From contig CAMBMO010000022.1 of the NCBI GenBank assembly GCA_945868805.1, positions 1-36,869 on the forward strand: a stretch of DNA of 36,869 nt. The letters run 5' to 3'. The notes under the pieces are model-generated. The model made no database searches and was not told the DNA's origin. It saw only the letters and a list, made by a program, of their open reading frames with translations. Shown here one piece after another: positions 10,816-31,642 of this stretch. Position numbers and translations under genes: made by a program. Position 1 is the first letter of the stretch; each line of letters starts with the position of its first letter. This DNA is from Singulisphaera sp. GP187. Its GTDB lineage: Bacteria > Planctomycetota > Phycisphaerae > Phycisphaerales > SM1A02.

Positions 10816-11853
10816 CTAGTTCGTCGGCGGATTCGGCATGCCCTCGCTCGGGATCTTGCTCGGGATCTTGCTCGGGATCTTGCTCGGGATATTTCCTGAG
10901 TACTTGCTTGGATGCTTTGACGAGAGCAACTCTGTCAAAGGTTGCGCAGTTGCACTCGTATGTGGAGGAGTCGATTCGTGCTTCGGACCAGTCGGGGGTG
11001 ACCGGAAGAGCAACGCCAACGACTGATTGCTTCCGATTTGGCGACCGAGTCGAGCAAGCGTTTCGACTTCGATCTGGCGAACGCGTTCACGGGTCAATCC
11101 AACGCGAAGACCGACCTCGTTGAGAGTCAGAGGTTCGGTTCCGTCCATTCCAAATCGCAGTCGCAAAACTTCTGCTTCTCGAGAGTCGATCGTGTCGAGG
11201 AGCCCAGTGATCACCCGAAGAATCTCGTTTTCTTCAACGACTTTGGTCGGGTTCTTTGATGTTGTGTCTTCGAAGACATCAGCAAAGTCCGCAACATCGC
11301 TGTCTGCGTTGTGGCTGATGACTTGGTTCGGCGTGTTGTGCGCCCGAAGCGCACGTCGAATGATCTGCAACTTTCCCAGCGGAACTTGCATCTCGCGCGC
11401 AAGCTCCTGCATCGAAGGAGGATGTCCGAGCTTCTCCTCGAGCATCTTTGACGCCGACTTGCAACGACTGATCAACTCGATCATGTACGCAGGAATGTGA
11501 ATCGGTTGGGTCGCATTGAGCAACGTCCGTTTGATGGATTGCTTGATCCACCACGATGCGTACGTCGAAAATCTCGCACCTTGTGCGGGGTCAAAGCCTT
11601 CGACGGCGCGGATCAGACCGACATTCCCCTCCTCGATCAGGTCAGGGAAAGAGATTCCACGATTCATGTAGCCCTTTGCAATCGCGATGACCAAACGGAG
11701 ATTTGCGGTGATCATCCGCTCCTTCGCGGCCACATCATTGTCGTTGATGATCGCCCAGCCGAGGGTTTTCTCCTCCGCAGGCGTGAGTAATGCGACGAGA
11801 CTGATCTCGCGCACATACATTTGGATTTCTGTTTGAACTTCAGATTTCGCCAT
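10816..11853 (-). CDS. RNA polymerase sigma-70 family factor, RpoD-like
   Basis: A 345-residue sigma factor with region 1.2 (about 5-38), region 2 (about 45-112: MITANLRLVIAIAKGYMNRG and GFDPAQGARFSTYASWWIKQ), region 3 (about 115-195) and region 4 (about 213-272: LTLNEVGLRVGLTRERVRQI). Region 1.1 of housekeeping RpoD is missing. It could be the primary factor of this lineage or a group 2 paralogue; sequence alone does not decide. Residues after about 275 form a non-conserved tail rich in Ser, Thr and Pro that ends in a fourfold (S/N)KIP repeat. The ATG at 11853 has GAGAGG five bases upstream. It diverges from the UVR-motif gene. Confidence 0.93.
   Translation of the reverse strand: MAKSEVQTEIQMYVREISLVALLTPAEEKTLGWAIINDNDVAAKERMITANLRLVIAIAKGYMNRGISFPDLIEEGNVGLIRAVEGFDPAQGARFSTYASWWIKQSIKRTLLNATQPIHIPAYMIELISRCKSASKMLEEKLGHPPSMQELAREMQVPLGKLQIIRRALRAHNTPNQVISHNADSDVADFADVFEDTTSKNPTKVVEENEILRVITGLLDTIDSREAEVLRLRFGMDGTEPLTLNEVGLRVGLTRERVRQIEVETLARLGRQIGSNQSLALLFRSPPTGPKHESTPPHTSATAQPLTELLSSKHPSKYSGNIPSKIPSKIPSKIPSEGMPNPPTN
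10846..10893. repeat. 12-bp tandem repeat, 4 copies, in the sigma factor 3' end
   Basis: Four copies of gctcgggatctt (the last ends atatt). On the minus strand they encode NIPSKIPSKIPSKIPSE in the non-conserved C-terminal tail of the sigma factor, well after region 4. The unit preserves the reading frame. Confidence 0.92.
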
Positions 11854-25749: not shown

Positions 25750-27189
25750 ATGCCGATTCAAAGAGTGAAGTCTGCGGTTCGATCTGCGAGCGAGGTGTGG
25801 TCGCTCGCGTGGCCGACTGTCATCACGATGATGAGCTACACCATGATGCAGTTCGTGGACAGCATGATGGTCGCTCGGCTCGGTCCGGTCGAACTTTCGG
25901 CCCAAGGTAACGGCGGAGTCTGGACCTGGACGGTGATTGCGGTTCTCATCGGGGCGATCTCGCTCGTGAACACATTTGTCGCGCAGAGTGTCGGCGCGGG
26001 CGAGCTGGCCGCGGTCGCTCGCTATGCCTGGAGCGGTATCTGGCTCGCAATCGGTTCGTGGATTTTCATCCTCATTCCAACTGGTTTTCTATTGTTTCCA
26101 CTGGCATTCTCATGGATGGGGCATGAACCGCTCCTCGAGAAACTCGAACTGGACTATTCGCAAATCCTGATCGTCGGGGGCGTTTTCACACTCGTTGGCA
26201 AAGCGATCAACAATTTCTTCTTCGGTATCGGTCGTCCGAAAGTCGTCACGATCGCTGCAATTCTCGGAAACATCGTCAATCTCGTGTTGAACTATGTCTT
26301 CATCTTCGGCGAAAGGGGGATTCCAGAGCTTGAACTTCCGGGGATCCCAGGACTCGCTCCGATGGGTGTCGCGGGATCGGCGCTCGCCACGGTGATCGGG
26401 ACCGCATGCGAGTGCGCGCTTCCCCTCGCCATTTTCTTTGGCAAAGAGATGTCAACGGAATTTGGTACGCGCGTTGCGTGGCGCCCTGACATGCCAGCGA
26501 TCAAGGATCTCATTCGAGTCGGTTGGCCTGCAAGTGTCCAATTCGGAAACGAGATGTTCTGCTGGTCAGTCTTCATGACGGTCATCGTTGGAACATTTGG
26601 CACCACGCATCTCGCCGCTGGGTGGATCGTCCTTCGCTATATGCACCTTTCGTTCATGCCCGCGGTCGGGTTCAGCATCGCGACAACAACTCTCGTCGGT
26701 CGTTCAATTGGAGCGAACGATCCTGACCTTGCGATGCGCTACGCACGCACAGCCGTCTGGATGTCGGTGGCGTACATGACGGCGTGGGGAATCCTCATGG
26801 TGATCTTCCGAGAGCCGATGATTCGGATCTTTACATCGAACGCCGTTGACGGTTCCGTCTCGCCTGAGGTCGTGGTCGAAATCGGCGCGAAGATCATGAT
26901 TTGCGCGGCGACGTTTCAGGCCTTTGACGCGATCGGCATCGTCTATTCGGGTGCGCTCCGTGGAGCAGGCGACACATTTTGGCCAGGAGTCGCCACCGTC
27001 GCTTTCAGTTGGATCGTGATCGTTGGAGGCGGGTACTGGATTGCGTTCAAGCATCCGCACCTTGGCTCCCTCGGACCTTGGATTGGCTCGACGGTCTACA
27101 TCGTCGCCATCAGTGTGTTCATGGCTTGGCGCTTCGAGCGCGGGCCGTGGCGAACCCACAAGCTCGTTCGCCACGCGACGTCGCCGTAA
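25750..27189 (+). CDS. MATE family efflux transporter
   Basis: A 479-residue membrane protein with twelve predicted helices in two halves. The family pattern is clear: LAWPTVITMMSYTMMQFVDSMMVARLGP at the start of the first half and IRVGWPASVQFGNEMFCWSVF at the start of the second, with GALRGAGDTFWP late in the chain. MATE proteins export cationic compounds in exchange for Na+ or H+; the substrate here is unknown. The ATG lies ten bases after an AGGA that is the end of the decamer array. It is 139 bases downstream of nuoG and may have its own promoter inside or near the repeat array. Confidence 0.93.
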   Translation: MPIQRVKSAVRSASEVWSLAWPTVITMMSYTMMQFVDSMMVARLGPVELSAQGNGGVWTWTVIAVLIGAISLVNTFVAQSVGAGELAAVARYAWSGIWLAIGSWIFILIPTGFLLFPLAFSWMGHEPLLEKLELDYSQILIVGGVFTLVGKAINNFFFGIGRPKVVTIAAILGNIVNLVLNYVFIFGERGIPELELPGIPGLAPMGVAGSALATVIGTACECALPLAIFFGKEMSTEFGTRVAWRPDMPAIKDLIRVGWPASVQFGNEMFCWSVFMTVIVGTFGTTHLAAGWIVLRYMHLSFMPAVGFSIATTTLVGRSIGANDPDLAMRYARTAVWMSVAYMTAWGILMVIFREPMIRIFTSNAVDGSVSPEVVVEIGAKIMICAATFQAFDAIGIVYSGALRGAGDTFWPGVATVAFSWIVIVGGGYWIAFKHPHLGSLGPWIGSTVYIVAISVFMAWRFERGPWRTHKLVRHATSP

Positions 27190-27306
27190 CGGAGCGCGTG
27201 CCCCCGTTTGGAGCTTGGAGGGCATTGGCGGTATGCTTGCCGACCCCCAAGAAATGCGCAGTGCAGATTTTGGCCCCATACATTTGGTCTTGAAGAGGTT
27301 TAGCGA

Positions 27307-28224
27307 ATGAGCAATGCAACGATAAAGCCAGTCAACCCAGGGAATTCAGTCGCAGCGAAGCCACACTTCGATCTTGCGGTTCGTCACGCGGCGGACGGTA
27401 ATCGTCCCGAAGCTGTCGCCTCGTTTCGCGTCGCGCTCGAGCACGACCGAGCGATCGACACGCTCTTCGCGTTGGCTCGACTTCTCGATCGCATGGGCGA
27501 GGACGAAGAGGCGATCGACTTGTACGAGGAAATTTGCTACCTGCCGACTCCTCCAGTCAACGCGCTGATCAATCTCGCTGTGCTGTACGAGGACATGGAC
27601 GAGCTTCCTCGCGCCGAACGATGCTTGCGTCGAGTGCTCGCGCTTTATCCCAATCACGCTCACGCGCGCATGTATGTCAAGGATGTTTGCGCGGTGCGCA
27701 CGATGTCGTATGACGCAAATGCCGAACAACAACTCGCCCGTCGCAATGCGATTCTCGACACGCCGATCACCGATTTCGAGCTGAGCGCACGCGCACGCAA
27801 CTGCCTAAAGAAAGTGGAGATCCGGACGCTTGGAGACTTGCTCCGCGTCACCGAAGCCGAGTTGATGTCCTTCAAGAACTTCGGCGAGACGAGCATTGCC
27901 GAAATCAAGTCGATGCTTAACTCGCGCGGACTGCGACTGGGTCAAGGTCTTGAGGGCGGGTTCGAAGAGTCGTACCGTCGCGAGTACCTCGATCAGCTTC
28001 GCACGCAGGTTGAGGCAGAGCTTCTCGAGCGACCAGTCAGTTGCCTCGAATTGACCATCCGCGCTCGCAAGGCGGTTCAGTTGCTCGAGGTTCGAACGCT
28101 CGGCGAACTCGCCTGTCGCACCGAGGCGGAGCTGATGGGGATGAAGAATTTCGGATCGACCAGTCTCGACGAAATCAAGTCGCAGCTCGCGACCCATGGA
28201 TTGGCGCTTCGAACGATTGAGTGA
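27307..28224 (+). CDS. TPR protein with two RNA polymerase alpha C-terminal domains
   Basis: A 305-residue protein. Residues about 15-125 form TPR helices (DLAVRHAADGNRPEAVASFR, LINLAVLYEDMDELPRAERC). Two copies of the RNA polymerase alpha-CTD follow at about 152-211 and 242-301. Compared with E. coli alpha, CTD1 keeps Arg162 (R265), Asn165 (N268), Gly193 (G296), Ser196 (S299) and Glu199 (E302); CTD2 keeps the Arg (252), Gly, Ser and Glu but has Lys255 at the Asn position. It lacks the alpha N-terminal assembly domain, so it cannot build the core enzyme and is more likely a DNA- or activator-binding regulator. GAAGAGG stands eight bases before the ATG. Similar proteins are known from planctomycetes; their function is not settled. 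Confidence 0.92.
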   Translation: MSNATIKPVNPGNSVAAKPHFDLAVRHAADGNRPEAVASFRVALEHDRAIDTLFALARLLDRMGEDEEAIDLYEEICYLPTPPVNALINLAVLYEDMDELPRAERCLRRVLALYPNHAHARMYVKDVCAVRTMSYDANAEQQLARRNAILDTPITDFELSARARNCLKKVEIRTLGDLLRVTEAELMSFKNFGETSIAEIKSMLNSRGLRLGQGLEGGFEESYRREYLDQLRTQVEAELLERPVSCLELTIRARKAVQLLEVRTLGELACRTEAELMGMKNFGSTSLDEIKSQLATHGLALRTIE

Positions 28225-28259
28225 TTCGTTGATTTCTTGACGGGTTGGGCTTTTCGGTC

Positions 28260-29774
28260 ATGGAAGACCTCGCTCACATCCTCCACACATCGCTTGTGCG
28301 CGCTTGTCGCGCATCTGTCGCATCTGTCGCATCTGTCGCATGCGGACTCCTTGCGTTCGTCGCGCTCGTTGGGTGTGCGAACGATCCAATCGTCGCGCAC
28401 ACTTCCAAAACCGCGCCAGTCGCGTTGGTGAGGGCATCGACCGAGGTTGAGTCGCCCGTCGTCGCTGCAACGACGGTCAATCCTCCACTGCTCGATCCAC
28501 CAGTCCTTCCGATTCCCGCCCAGAAACCCGCCCCAGTACCGCCGAGGCCGCTCCCAGTGCCTCCGAGCCTCGAGCCCGAAGTCGCGATTCGAATCGACAC
28601 GCTCTCGCCATCGGATTCGATCGTGATCGACCACCCGAGCGGGAGGGTCAGCATCCTTTCTGAGAGTCTCTCGGGCGAGGGGGAAATGTGGACAGCCAGC
28701 GCACCCGTGGAAATCCGGGCAATTGGTTCGGGATGGCGCGTCACGCCGAGTAGGCGCTCGCGACCTGCATCGAGCGACGCGATCGACGATGTGGCACTGA
28801 AGACGCGCGATATTGGAGAAGGCGAATTGACGATCCAAGCTCCGCACGGGAACGATCAGCCAATCATCTGGAAGGGGAATTCGTGGCCAGGGAAACTGCG
28901 GGTGGTGCGGACGCCAGAGAAAATCGATCTGGTGATGGATGTTGCGATGGATACTTACTTGCCTGGCGTGATCGCGAAGGAACTTTATCCATCGTGGTGC
29001 GCGGCTGCCTATCACGCACAAGCGATCGCCGCACGCAGTTTCGCTCTGGTCGAGGAAGCGCGCTGGGAGGGTCGCCGTCACTACGACATGGTTGCTGGAC
29101 AGCAGAGTCAGGCGTGGATTGGCGCGACGAAAAATGCAAAGGCAATTGACGCTGTGCGGGAGACACGTGGCCAGGTGCTCGTCCACGATGGAGTCGTCGT
29201 TCCGGCGTACTACTCCAGCTGTTGCGGAGGTCGACCCGCCAATGCGCTCGGCGTGCTGACGGACAATCCCCATCACGACATCGCACCCATCTCGACCGGG
29301 AACTCGGAGACACCGCGTGGTTCCTGCTGTGAGGGAACCGCAGTCTCGAAGTGGAAGGCGTCGATTTCGCTTGCGACCATTCGCGCCCGTTTGCAGGAAT
29401 GGGGAAGAACCAATGGCCGCACCGATTTGAGCGACTTGCAACCTCCCTCAAGCATCGCAGTCGCTGACAAGAATTCGGCAGGTCGACCAACGATCCTCGT
29501 GATTCGCTCTCGATCAGGAGCAGAAGTGACCATAGACGCAGAGGACTTTCGCCGTGCGATCAACGCCGCCGGGGACTCCAAGACCAGTATGAGGTCGTCC
29601 GACTGTTCGATTCGCATCGCGTCGGGCAATGTTGATTTCGCAGGTCGTGGTTTCGGGCATGGCGTCGGACTCTGTCAACATGGAGCGCAGGAGATGGGAC
29701 GCAAGGGATCGTCCTATCGGCAGATCCTCACTCGTTATTATCCTGAAACGATGATCGTGCAGGCTTGGAAATAA
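28260..29774 (+). CDS. SpoIID/LytB domain lipoprotein
   Basis: A 504-residue protein from ATG 28260 with a long signal region ending in a lipobox (FVALVGC), so a lipid anchor is likely. A proline-rich linker follows (about 75-115). The SpoIID domain spans about 220-500: YLPGVIAKELYPSWCAAAYH, AQAIAARSFALVEEA, AYYSSCCGGR and GRGFGHGVGLCQHGAQEM, the core of the family. SpoIID is a lytic transglycosylase acting on peptide-free glycan strands in sporulating Firmicutes; homologues in non-sporulating bacteria remodel peptidoglycan, probably at division. Here it is periplasmic and should act on the wall. An in-frame TTG at 28245 would add five residues. The signal sequence contains a 9-bp tandem repeat. 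Confidence 0.9.
   Translation: MEDLAHILHTSLVRACRASVASVASVACGLLAFVALVGCANDPIVAHTSKTAPVALVRASTEVESPVVAATTVNPPLLDPPVLPIPAQKPAPVPPRPLPVPPSLEPEVAIRIDTLSPSDSIVIDHPSGRVSILSESLSGEGEMWTASAPVEIRAIGSGWRVTPSRRSRPASSDAIDDVALKTRDIGEGELTIQAPHGNDQPIIWKGNSWPGKLRVVRTPEKIDLVMDVAMDTYLPGVIAKELYPSWCAAAYHAQAIAARSFALVEEARWEGRRHYDMVAGQQSQAWIGATKNAKAIDAVRETRGQVLVHDGVVVPAYYSSCCGGRPANALGVLTDNPHHDIAPISTGNSETPRGSCCEGTAVSKWKASISLATIRARLQEWGRTNGRTDLSDLQPPSSIAVADKNSAGRPTILVIRSRSGAEVTIDAEDFRRAINAAGDSKTSMRSSDCSIRIASGNVDFAGRGFGHGVGLCQHGAQEMGRKGSSYRQILTRYYPETMIVQAWK
28312..28338. repeat. 9-bp tandem repeat, 3 copies, in the SpoIID signal sequence
   Basis: Three copies of catctgtcg encode ASVASVASVA just ahead of the hydrophobic core of the signal peptide. 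The unit keeps the frame, so copy-number change would alter only the length of the region before the core. Confidence 0.9.
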
Positions 29775-29777
29775 TCA

Positions 29778-30380
29778 ATGTTTACTGGAATCGTCCATGG
29801 TATTGGGGCCATCGTGAAATGCGCCGCTACGCCGTGTGGACGGCGACTCGTCGTCGATGCGGGCTCGTCGATGATTCCGCCGCGAACGGGTGACTCGATC
29901 AGTATCGACGGCGTCTGCTTGACGGTGGTCGAGATTCAGCGCGGTGAAATCGCATTTGATGTGATGGCACAGACACTCTCGATGACGACGATTGGATCGC
30001 TGTGCGTTGGTGATGCAGTCAATGTCGAATCAGCTCTCCGGATGGGCGATCCAATGGGAGGGCACATCGTGCAGGGGCATGTGGATTCGATTGGAGAAGT
30101 CTTGGCAATCGATCGCAGCGATGGACAGTGTCGAGTGCGACTACACGTCAATGACGACGCGCTTTCAATCGTTGTCTCACAAGGCTCGATCACCGTCGAT
30201 GGAGTCTCGCTCACGGTGGCGAGTCGAGGCGCCGATTGGTTGGAAGTCGCCCTGATTCCAGAAACACTTTCAAGGACGGCGCTCGGTCGTTTGGCGGTCG
30301 GAGATCGGGTCAACCTCGAGGTCGACGCGATCGCACGCCTCGTCGATCAGGCAGTCGCACGGCGAATGGGTGTGGTCTAG
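29778..30380 (+). CDS. ribE: Riboflavin synthase, alpha subunit
   Basis: A 200-residue protein made of two similar lumazine-binding barrels (about 1-97 and 98-190). The N-terminal MFTGIV, the segments DSISIDGVCLTVVE and GSITVDGVSLTVAS, and GGHIVQGHVDSIG are diagnostic. It converts two molecules of 6,7-dimethyl-8-ribityllumazine to riboflavin and a pyrimidine by-product in the cytoplasm. It starts three bases after the SpoIID gene, with no other rib gene and no visible FMN riboswitch. Its TAG stop shares CTAG with the stop of the convergent phosphatase gene. Confidence 0.96.
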   Translation: MFTGIVHGIGAIVKCAATPCGRRLVVDAGSSMIPPRTGDSISIDGVCLTVVEIQRGEIAFDVMAQTLSMTTIGSLCVGDAVNVESALRMGDPMGGHIVQGHVDSIGEVLAIDRSDGQCRVRLHVNDDALSIVVSQGSITVDGVSLTVASRGADWLEVALIPETLSRTALGRLAVGDRVNLEVDAIARLVDQAVARRMGVV

Positions 30381-31642
30381 TCGTCGATCCAGGCCGAACA
30401 GACAAGCGTGAGATCATCGATTTGCGGAAAGTCGAGCGACTCTTCATTTAATCTGAGATTGACTTGATCGATGAATTCACTCGGACGCTCGATCGACGCG
30501 AATTCGTTGAAGACATCCAGATATCTGCGATTGGGTAGGCGTGGCGCCGCGGGATCCTGCCCTAATTCTGGGAATGCCTGCTCGAATCCATCGGAGTAAA
30601 AGAGCAACTTGTCGCCTGGCGCCAAATCCACGACTTCCTCGGAAAATGATTCGTCGTCAAAGACGCCGAGCAGTCCACCATGCGTCTGGATGATTTCGCA
30701 TTGACCGTCGCGCGGGATCCGAATGAGTGGGAGGTGGCCCGCGCTCGCGACAGTCAGTCGATGCGTGTGGGTATCGATGACGGCGTAGATCGCAGTCGCG
30801 AATCGAGTGGTTCGACCCGCGCGCGACATCATGTCCGCATTCACCAGCGAAAGCGCCTCCCGCGGAGGGATGATTCGGTACGACTTCTCCGTAATCTCCT
30901 TGGTCGGAAGGCTTCGGGAAATGACAAGGGTCAAAAGTGCCGCGGGTACTCCATGACCAACCGCATCGGTGACAAAGACCCCGAGGTGGTTTTCGTCCAG
31001 TCGCATCACGTTGTAGATGTCCCCAGAAACGTATGCCGCGGGTCGCCAGAGCGCCGCCGACGCAATGCCACCGAGTGTCGGCAGGACGCGCGGAAGAAAC
31101 TCGCGCTGAACGCTCGCAGCCAATTGGAGTTCTTCTTGGATCCCGTCGATTTCGCTCCGGAGTCCACCCGAAGATCCGAGGGCGCTGACCGTGTCGAGTT
31201 TCAAGCGGTTGAATTCACGCTGTCGCGAGATGAGCGCGGACAGTGCTGTGGCGAGGTGTTCTGGACCGAGCGCCGGATCGATCGCGAATGAGACGCCAGC
31301 TGGAGGATCTTGAAGTGGACCGAATTCCGCGCAGAGCGCGATGATCGGAATCATCGACGAGACCGCCTCTTCCGCCGCGGGTGATTGCATGTCTTCGACG
31401 GTCGGTGCGCCGACCATCAGGAGTGCCTGCGCCTCGCGCACTTCAGTCGCGATCTCGACGCAGTCGCGCCTTTCGATGACCCGAGCGTCGAAATCGAACT
31501 TTGAGCAGAGAACGCGCGCAACGGTCTCGTGAGTCGATCCAACTTGGAGCGTGACGATCGCGATGCGCGGGCGAAGTCGTCGCAGTGACTGATGTTCAAT
31601 CGGGATTGGCACGAACGAGCGATTGTAATGAGTGGCTAGCAT
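30377..31642 (-). CDS. SpoIIE/RsbU-type protein phosphatase with receiver-like N-terminus
   Basis: A 421-residue cytoplasmic protein. Residues about 25-140 have the alternating strand-helix pattern of a response-regulator receiver (RIAIVTLQVG, ALLMVGAPT, IPIIALCAEF), but the third strand ends VGAPT with no phosphoacceptor Asp. A helical linker (about 160-185, IQEELQLAASVQREFLP) joins it to a PP2C-type phosphatase domain with metal-binding Asp208 (VSGDIY), Asp226 (VTDAVGHG) and Asp351 (FYSDG), and IDDLTLV near the end. Such enzymes dephosphorylate anti-sigma antagonists or similar switch proteins. No antagonist or kinase partner lies beside it. It diverges from the carbinolamine dehydratase gene with nine bases between starts. 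Confidence 0.9.
   Translation of the reverse strand: MLATHYNRSFVPIPIEHQSLRRLRPRIAIVTLQVGSTHETVARVLCSKFDFDARVIERRDCVEIATEVREAQALLMVGAPTVEDMQSPAAEEAVSSMIPIIALCAEFGPLQDPPAGVSFAIDPALGPEHLATALSALISRQREFNRLKLDTVSALGSSGGLRSEIDGIQEELQLAASVQREFLPRVLPTLGGIASAALWRPAAYVSGDIYNVMRLDENHLGVFVTDAVGHGVPAALLTLVISRSLPTKEITEKSYRIIPPREALSLVNADMMSRAGRTTRFATAIYAVIDTHTHRLTVASAGHLPLIRIPRDGQCEIIQTHGGLLGVFDDESFSEEVVDLAPGDKLLFYSDGFEQAFPELGQDPAAPRLPNRRYLDVFNEFASIERPSEFIDQVNLRLNEESLDFPQIDDLTLVCSAWIDD

Follow-up and report, generated by a model that had tools for sequence, protein, structure and literature searches.

The 36,869-nucleotide stretch analysed here (the window) carries on its forward strand a gene for a protein that joins a TPR domain to two copies of the C-terminal domain of the RNA polymerase alpha subunit (alpha-CTD), which we call the tandem-CTD protein. 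The gene, the parts of its product and the gene that follows are laid out as follows.

27307..28224, + strand: TPR / alpha-CTD / alpha-CTD protein (P0001), 305 amino acids, an open reading frame with an ATG start
27346..27711, + strand: TPR domain, residues about 14-135, placed by Pfam, structure model and fold match
27742..27942, + strand: first alpha-CTD (CTD1), residues about 146-212, placed by Pfam, residues and structure model
27943..28014, + strand: linker between CTD1 and CTD2, mostly helical by AlphaFold prediction (helix 213-234)
28009..28212, + strand: second alpha-CTD (CTD2), residues about 235-302, placed by Pfam and residues
28245..29774, + strand: next gene downstream, encoding a SpoIID-domain protein (PF08486, E 4.6e-18)

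The Pfam family RNA_pol_A_CTD (PF03118) matched two stretches of the 305-amino-acid protein (E 6.4e-37; 125.5 bits, cut-off 23.8) and TPR_2 matched three (E 3.7e-14, 52 bits against a cut-off of 27), confirming a first-pass annotation that had described two alpha-CTD copies and a TPR part with no alpha N-terminal domain. At the DNA level the CTDs were matched at 27742-27921 (E 1.7e-21) and 28009-28191 (E 4.4e-15). The alpha N-terminal domain (alpha-NTD) was absent among the 17 Pfam families listed, as were, by Pfam, the RuvA_N, RuvA_C, NERD and kinase domains, and all eight RNA polymerase alpha equivalogs listed scored below their own cut-offs. The genome's own RpoA, 333 amino acids long, is encoded whole on a different contig (G000:C9). 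A fragment or fusion artefact of rpoA was considered and rejected, because rpoA is separate and whole and the protein recurs phylum-wide. Elsewhere in the window, a reverse-strand gene (10816-11853) encodes a sigma-70-family factor with Sigma70_r3 over its cut-off. Sigma-70-type promoter sites numbered zero in 26900-30500, against a shuffle mean of 0.8, which is uninformative.

The whole-protein AlphaFold model, built with 91 orthologues, had a mean pLDDT of 87.9 and a pTM of 0.49, predicting individual domains that are well formed and a mutual arrangement that is uncertain. A search with this model returned TPR structures only, among the 50 matches listed, and its TPR part aligned with TPR structures at VIA-align Z of about 15-16, within residues 9-135. 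The CTD fold match came from CTD1 modelled by itself (pLDDT 89.3, pTM 0.75): Foldseek rows 1-7 were chains of the alpha subunit or its CTD from E. coli and Caulobacter, at 0.7-1.6 Angstrom over 64-69 columns, and the matches included alpha-CTD on DNA with CAP (1lb2 and 3n4m), on AT-rich DNA (9zum) and together with sigma region 4 on UP/-35 DNA (3n97). Since the CTD1 model matches alpha subunits and orthologues span the phylum, the domain assignment is far beyond chance.

With the window protein as query, 57 of 61 close genomes (its own included) had an orthologue. The class gave 144 of 150, or 123 of 126 when good assemblies alone are counted, and the phylum 188 of 199, or 112 of 114. In these counts the genome draws overlap and contig ends truncate some of the matches; we read the domain make-up in 105 distinct orthologues, the window's included, rather than in every match. 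Among 98 genomes of the phylum, 81 had three Pfam CTD matches, the number that one RpoA plus one tandem-CTD protein should give, and the others had four (9 genomes), five (2), six (2), two (3) or one (1). Two good assemblies were missed by the phylum search. In one (G329), a 153-amino-acid frame at a contig end holds two of the three CTD matches, and the other (G224) has a single CTD match, in a 73-amino-acid frame. In the four close genomes without an orthologue (G010, G022, G025 and G026), the matches were to the RpoA CTD; these and six more genomes lacking an orthologue in the close-genome and class searches (G066, G077, G081, G128, G140 and G145) each have a single CTD, whose frame is the size of an RpoA (334-405 amino acids), and five of the ten (G022, G025, G066, G081 and G128) are good assemblies. 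The gene may be dispensable, unless the one-CTD genomes reflect assembly gaps, from which loss is indistinguishable here.

Ten genomes of one other phylum, reached through L016-L018, yielded no single match combining TPR with two CTDs, and in all ten a frame of RpoA size carried a CTD match. The record L016 is titled Planctomycetales bacterium, yet its genome groups with a different small phylum; it is without the protein. A contig scan with six peptides of the window protein, which reaches close relatives only and is uninformative on other phyla, gave 15 loci (11 orthologues, 1 fragment and 3 RpoA). Members outside the window's order often have longer frames, of about 430-500 amino acids by predicted starts, and in the window's order the protein is shorter, with a reduced TPR arm. 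Orthologues of the L124 and L091 type carry some 130-190 extra N-terminal residues with more TPR-like helices or repeats.

Contact residues are given in E. coli alpha numbering, which is consistent with passages of published papers. In the window's CTD1, R162, N165, G193, S196 and E199 correspond to R265, N268, G296, S299 and E302, N191 belongs to the DNA-contact set as well, and the sigma-contact acids are D156 and E158; CTD2 has R252, K255, G283, S286 and E289, with Lys at the N268 place. The first-pass annotation had made the same calls, five equivalents in CTD1 and Lys for N268 in CTD2, and they were correct. We then followed these places through an alignment (A1) of the window protein and 90 of the 104 other distinct orthologues; the 14 omitted were four near relatives from the genus and ten others, most of which had an automatic start placed far upstream. 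Among the 91 sequences, CTD1 has R265 in 91, N268 in 85 (Thr in 6), N294 in 91, G296 in 91, S299 in 88 and E302 in 90, as well as C269 in 79. CTD2 has R265 in 91, N294 in 90, G296 in 90, S299 in 89 and E302 in 91, and N268 in 2, with Lys or Arg at this place in 84. Orthologues thus retain in both CTDs the Arg/Gly/Ser/Glu set, whose loss across orthologues the annotation had named as a result that would refute its proposal. Place 298 is Thr in 65 of 91 CTD1s and 88 of 91 CTD2s; because it is also Thr in all 21 planctomycete RpoAs, taken from 21 genomes, this is no loss relative to the host's own CTD. Passages of one paper describe R265 and N268 contacting backbone and minor groove in a CAP-DNA-alpha-CTD crystal, and changes of N268 to A, D, W or T that impair E. 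coli alpha-CTD function (PMC11434276). As N268 changes are harmful in E. coli, CTD2 and the six CTD1s with Thr may bind DNA differently.

The acids that face sigma are also kept in CTD1, with Asp at 259 in 87 of 91 sequences (Glu in the other 4) and Glu at 261 in 80 (Asp in 9 more). Acidic residues thus occupy 259 and 261 in 91/91 and 89/91 CTD1s, in 48/91 and 68/91 CTD2s and in 18/21 and 14/21 planctomycete RpoAs, and the RpoA of the window genome has Asn at 261. The main sigma factor, read in the window genome only, has the motif HPVRRQRLTSF, with Arg at the R603 place as defined by HPSRSEVLRSF, which we take to be the E. coli counterpart. In E. coli, according to passages of one paper, D259 and E261 aid UP-element function through contact with sigma70 R603 (PMC5511352). 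Sigma region 4, which the first-pass annotation had listed as one thing a detached CTD pair might bind, therefore gains some support as a partner from the near-constant acids of CTD1 and the sigma Arg. The TPR part has N89, A120 and D126 in all 91 sequences, E95 in 90 and D96 in 89, a pattern that would fit a conserved ligand of the TPR groove.

A tree of 60-residue CTD segments, from 45 of the 91 orthologues taken at random and 29 RpoA sequences (eight from outside the phylum, including E. coli), resolved CTD1 (45/45), CTD2 (45/45) and RpoA (29/29) as separate clades. The CTD1 (0.68) and CTD2 (0.79) clades were modestly supported, the split from RpoA well (0.98), and the clade pattern would fit one duplication preceding the radiation of the phylum. 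Identity of the protein correlated with RpoA identity (r 0.69 over 153 genome pairs, a value reached in 0 of 2000 permutations), and descent is largely vertical. A recent or mobile origin was unsupported, given identities that track RpoA and plasmid and phage collections with 1 and 6 matching records, respectively, at 29-43% query coverage, none of them at 80% and several annotated rpoA.

CTD1 is more conserved overall than the CTD of the polymerase itself. Across 18 matched genomes, which are those of the 21 RpoA genomes with an orthologue in A1, mean pairwise identity was 65.1% for CTD1, 56.9% for the RpoA CTD and 50.2% for CTD2, and mean entropy was 0.93, 1.15 and 1.37 bits, respectively. 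We divided the domain into DNA, sigma and activator faces by the places usually assigned to each in alpha-CTD. At the DNA-contact places RpoA was the most conserved (0.15 bit, versus 0.36 for CTD1 and 0.57 for CTD2). The sigma-side places 257-259 and 261 had entropies of 0.83 bits in CTD1, 1.74 in RpoA and 1.92 in CTD2, and the activator-contact places 285-288 had 0.83, 1.64 and 1.16 bits. Because the sigma and activator places are equally tight, CTD1 seems to be held by protein contacts in general, with sigma as one candidate. Within the genus (8 sequences, 28 pairs), pN/pS was 0.047 for CTD1, 0.148 for CTD2 and 0.175 for the TPR part. Mean net charge was +0.9 and +1.1 for the two CTDs and -0.2 for the RpoA CTD, with a spread of about 2, making the detached domains slightly more basic only.

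Several known systems invite comparison. CTD1 resembles the RpoA alpha-CTD (PF03118) in fold, in its DNA-contact residues and in the D259/E261 acids; unlike RpoA, the tandem-CTD protein has no alpha-NTD, carries two CTDs on a TPR domain, is encoded apart from rpoA and has CTDs that form clades of their own. PglW of BREX (NERD - kinase - alpha-CTD; NCBIfam NF033442) also has a detached alpha-CTD, but it is about 1400 amino acids long, with kinase and NERD domains that are both absent from the tandem-CTD protein. One PglW-like protein, with NERD, kinase and alpha-CTD, was seen at L191:2485-6753 (-); the frames of L191, L192, L193, L199 and L200 are 1405-1519 amino acids long with one alpha-CTD match each, and those of L192 and L200 start like that of L191. 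Short stand-alone alpha-CTD proteins (NCBIfam NF005841, PRK07758) likewise lack the NTD, but are about 95-137 amino acids long, with one CTD and no TPR; the window protein scored 39.8 bits against NF005841, whose cut-off is 115. A 137-amino-acid frame at L196:1047-1457 (-) is of this kind, a single alpha-CTD being its sole Pfam domain over cut-off. Detached alpha-CTDs of the same phylum also occur in proteins from two genomes that have sigma region 4 and HARE-HTH instead of TPR. At L194:2593-5058 (+), an 822-amino-acid chain joins three alpha-CTD matches to Sigma70 region 4 and HARE-HTH, and at L195:2538-4640 (+) a 701-amino-acid chain does so with two. Spx and other alpha-CTD-dependent factors likewise exert trans-acting control at the level of the alpha-CTD, but Spx binds the alpha-CTD, whereas the tandem-CTD protein itself consists of alpha-CTDs (PMC2801614).

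That CTD1 is held more tightly than the polymerase's own tail suggests that a piece of the polymerase has been turned into a transcription factor. We tentatively propose, at slightly less than an even chance, that the protein is a core transcription factor of planctomycetes derived from a detached part of the polymerase, with CTD1 on A/T-rich upstream DNA by sigma region 4 and a partner on the TPR domain. CTD1 would enter the A/T-rich minor groove upstream of the -35 element, as the RpoA alpha-CTD does, and its D259 and E261 would contact sigma region 4, making the protein an extra, trans-acting alpha-CTD at promoters whose net effect would be activation. CTD2, with Lys or Arg for N268, might hold adjacent DNA in another mode or make a protein contact, and the TPR domain would bring a conserved partner to the initiation complex. 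This proposal draws support from the alpha-CTD fold matches, the retained DNA-contact residues and the presence of both D259/E261 and the sigma Arg; from the constraint on CTD1, the near-universality of the gene and its identity tracking that of RpoA; and from the two other proteins of the phylum in which a single chain combines alpha-CTDs with sigma region 4. Counting against it are the absence of N268 from CTD2 and the Thr there in 6/91 CTD1s, a tight conservation of CTD1 that is not special to the sigma side, the lower conservation of CTD1 than of RpoA at DNA-contact places, a CTD charge barely above that of RpoA, the one-CTD good assemblies and the pTM of 0.49 for the domain arrangement. 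That the protein serves as a lineage-specific general initiation factor of Planctomycetota, placing a third alpha-CTD beside sigma region 4 at many promoters while the TPR domain couples a partner, is possible but doubtful.

Two alternatives rest on the same residues as the core-factor proposal, and are distinguishable from it by experiment alone. The protein could be a nucleoid-type binder of the A/T minor groove, a bivalent CTD clamp that coats or bridges DNA genome-wide, free of the polymerase, with the TPR domain as an oligomerization or anchoring element. R265, G296, S299 and E302 in both CTDs, the basic change at N268 in CTD2 and the standing of the gene as a core gene of the phylum would all agree with such a role, which we consider unlikely, as it leaves the tight protein-contact places of CTD1 (257-261 and 285-288) unexplained, though CTD1 is tighter overall. 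Alternatively, the protein could be a competitor or decoy that takes UP-like DNA, sigma region 4 or activators from the RpoA CTDs and lowers transcription, with the TPR domain as sensor. The detachment of the CTDs from the polymerase and the equal tightness of activator and sigma places in CTD1 (0.83 bit each) speak for it, but place 287, within the activator set, is variable in CTD1 (A in 64/91), and a near-universal gene under strong purifying selection would better fit a standing part of the machinery, although this last argument is weaker than the one that the protein-contact faces give against a nucleoid-type binder; we hold a decoy to be quite improbable.

The gene neighbourhood bears on two further alternatives. 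In the window, the stop codon lies 20 nt before the SpoIID gene if the latter starts at TTG 28245, and 35 nt before it with ATG 28260, and the two genes are probably co-transcribed. A short tandem repeat of gcatctgtc units near the SpoIID gene start (28311-28341) encodes Ala-Ser-Val repeats, maybe within the SpoIID signal peptide. We scored 101 distinct loci, each with 900 nt or more of downstream sequence, by similarity to neighbours from 42 loci. On the same strand, spoIID begins within 1200 nt downstream in 44 of them, 20 have ruvA at up to 700 nt, and 3 have tgt at up to about 215 nt; the remaining 34 gave none of the three, and 16 of these have flanks under 1500 nt. The SpoIID, RuvA, RuvB and TGT domains were confirmed by Pfam on one example each. 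The fullest order, in L097 and L098, is tandem-CTD gene - ruvA - ruvB - one more gene - spoIID - tgt, and in L124 the order is tandem-CTD gene - spoIID - tgt - yajC - secDF (yajC and secDF named by eye). These arrangements look like remnants of one ancestral cluster trimmed lineage by lineage, and the neighbourhood points to an old housekeeping context rather than a single pathway. The recurring neighbours are not transcription genes, which counts against the core-factor proposal.

From the proximity of spoIID in 44/101 loci, one could suppose that the protein is an envelope-linked regulator, a cytoplasmic protein whose TPR domain reads a signal tied to the SpoIID-type wall enzyme and whose CTDs set wall-gene transcription; ruvA or tgt occupies that place in other lineages and an inherited cluster accounts for the gene order too, making this very unlikely. 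A DNA-repair or recombination accessory, whose HhH-like CTDs would bind DNA together with RuvA/RuvB, is highly improbable even though ruvA follows in 20/101 loci (ruvB next in L097 and L098) and RuvA also has HhH domains, since the link, with spoIID in 44 loci and tgt in 3, looks to be to the old cluster and not to ruvA itself, the CTDs match alpha-CTDs, and a RuvC match away from the gene in 12 of 12 genomes checked makes it no stand-in for RuvC.

In textbook accounts activated transcription centres on the alpha-CTD, a domain that is normally attached to the polymerase. Detached alpha-CTDs are already known, from BREX PglW (NF033442) and the short stand-alone proteins (NF005841). A TPR and tandem alpha-CTD protein as a core gene of a phylum had no description in the literature we searched, a set with most subscription journals outside it. 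In P. limnophila, passages of one study list 108 essential phylum-specific proteins of unidentified function, and count the housekeeping sigma and the subunits of the core RNA polymerase among the essential gene products (PMC10632474). A phylum with unusual cell biology appears to retain a second, free pair of alpha-CTDs, the first copy of which is held more tightly than the polymerase's own. If the core-factor proposal holds at promoters, the role of an alpha-CTD uncoupled from the core would become directly testable, and the protein would offer a concrete entry point into planctomycete transcription. Were it also a general initiation factor, these bacteria would regulate their polymerase through a removable copy, acting in trans, of a domain that is elsewhere covalently bound to the enzyme.
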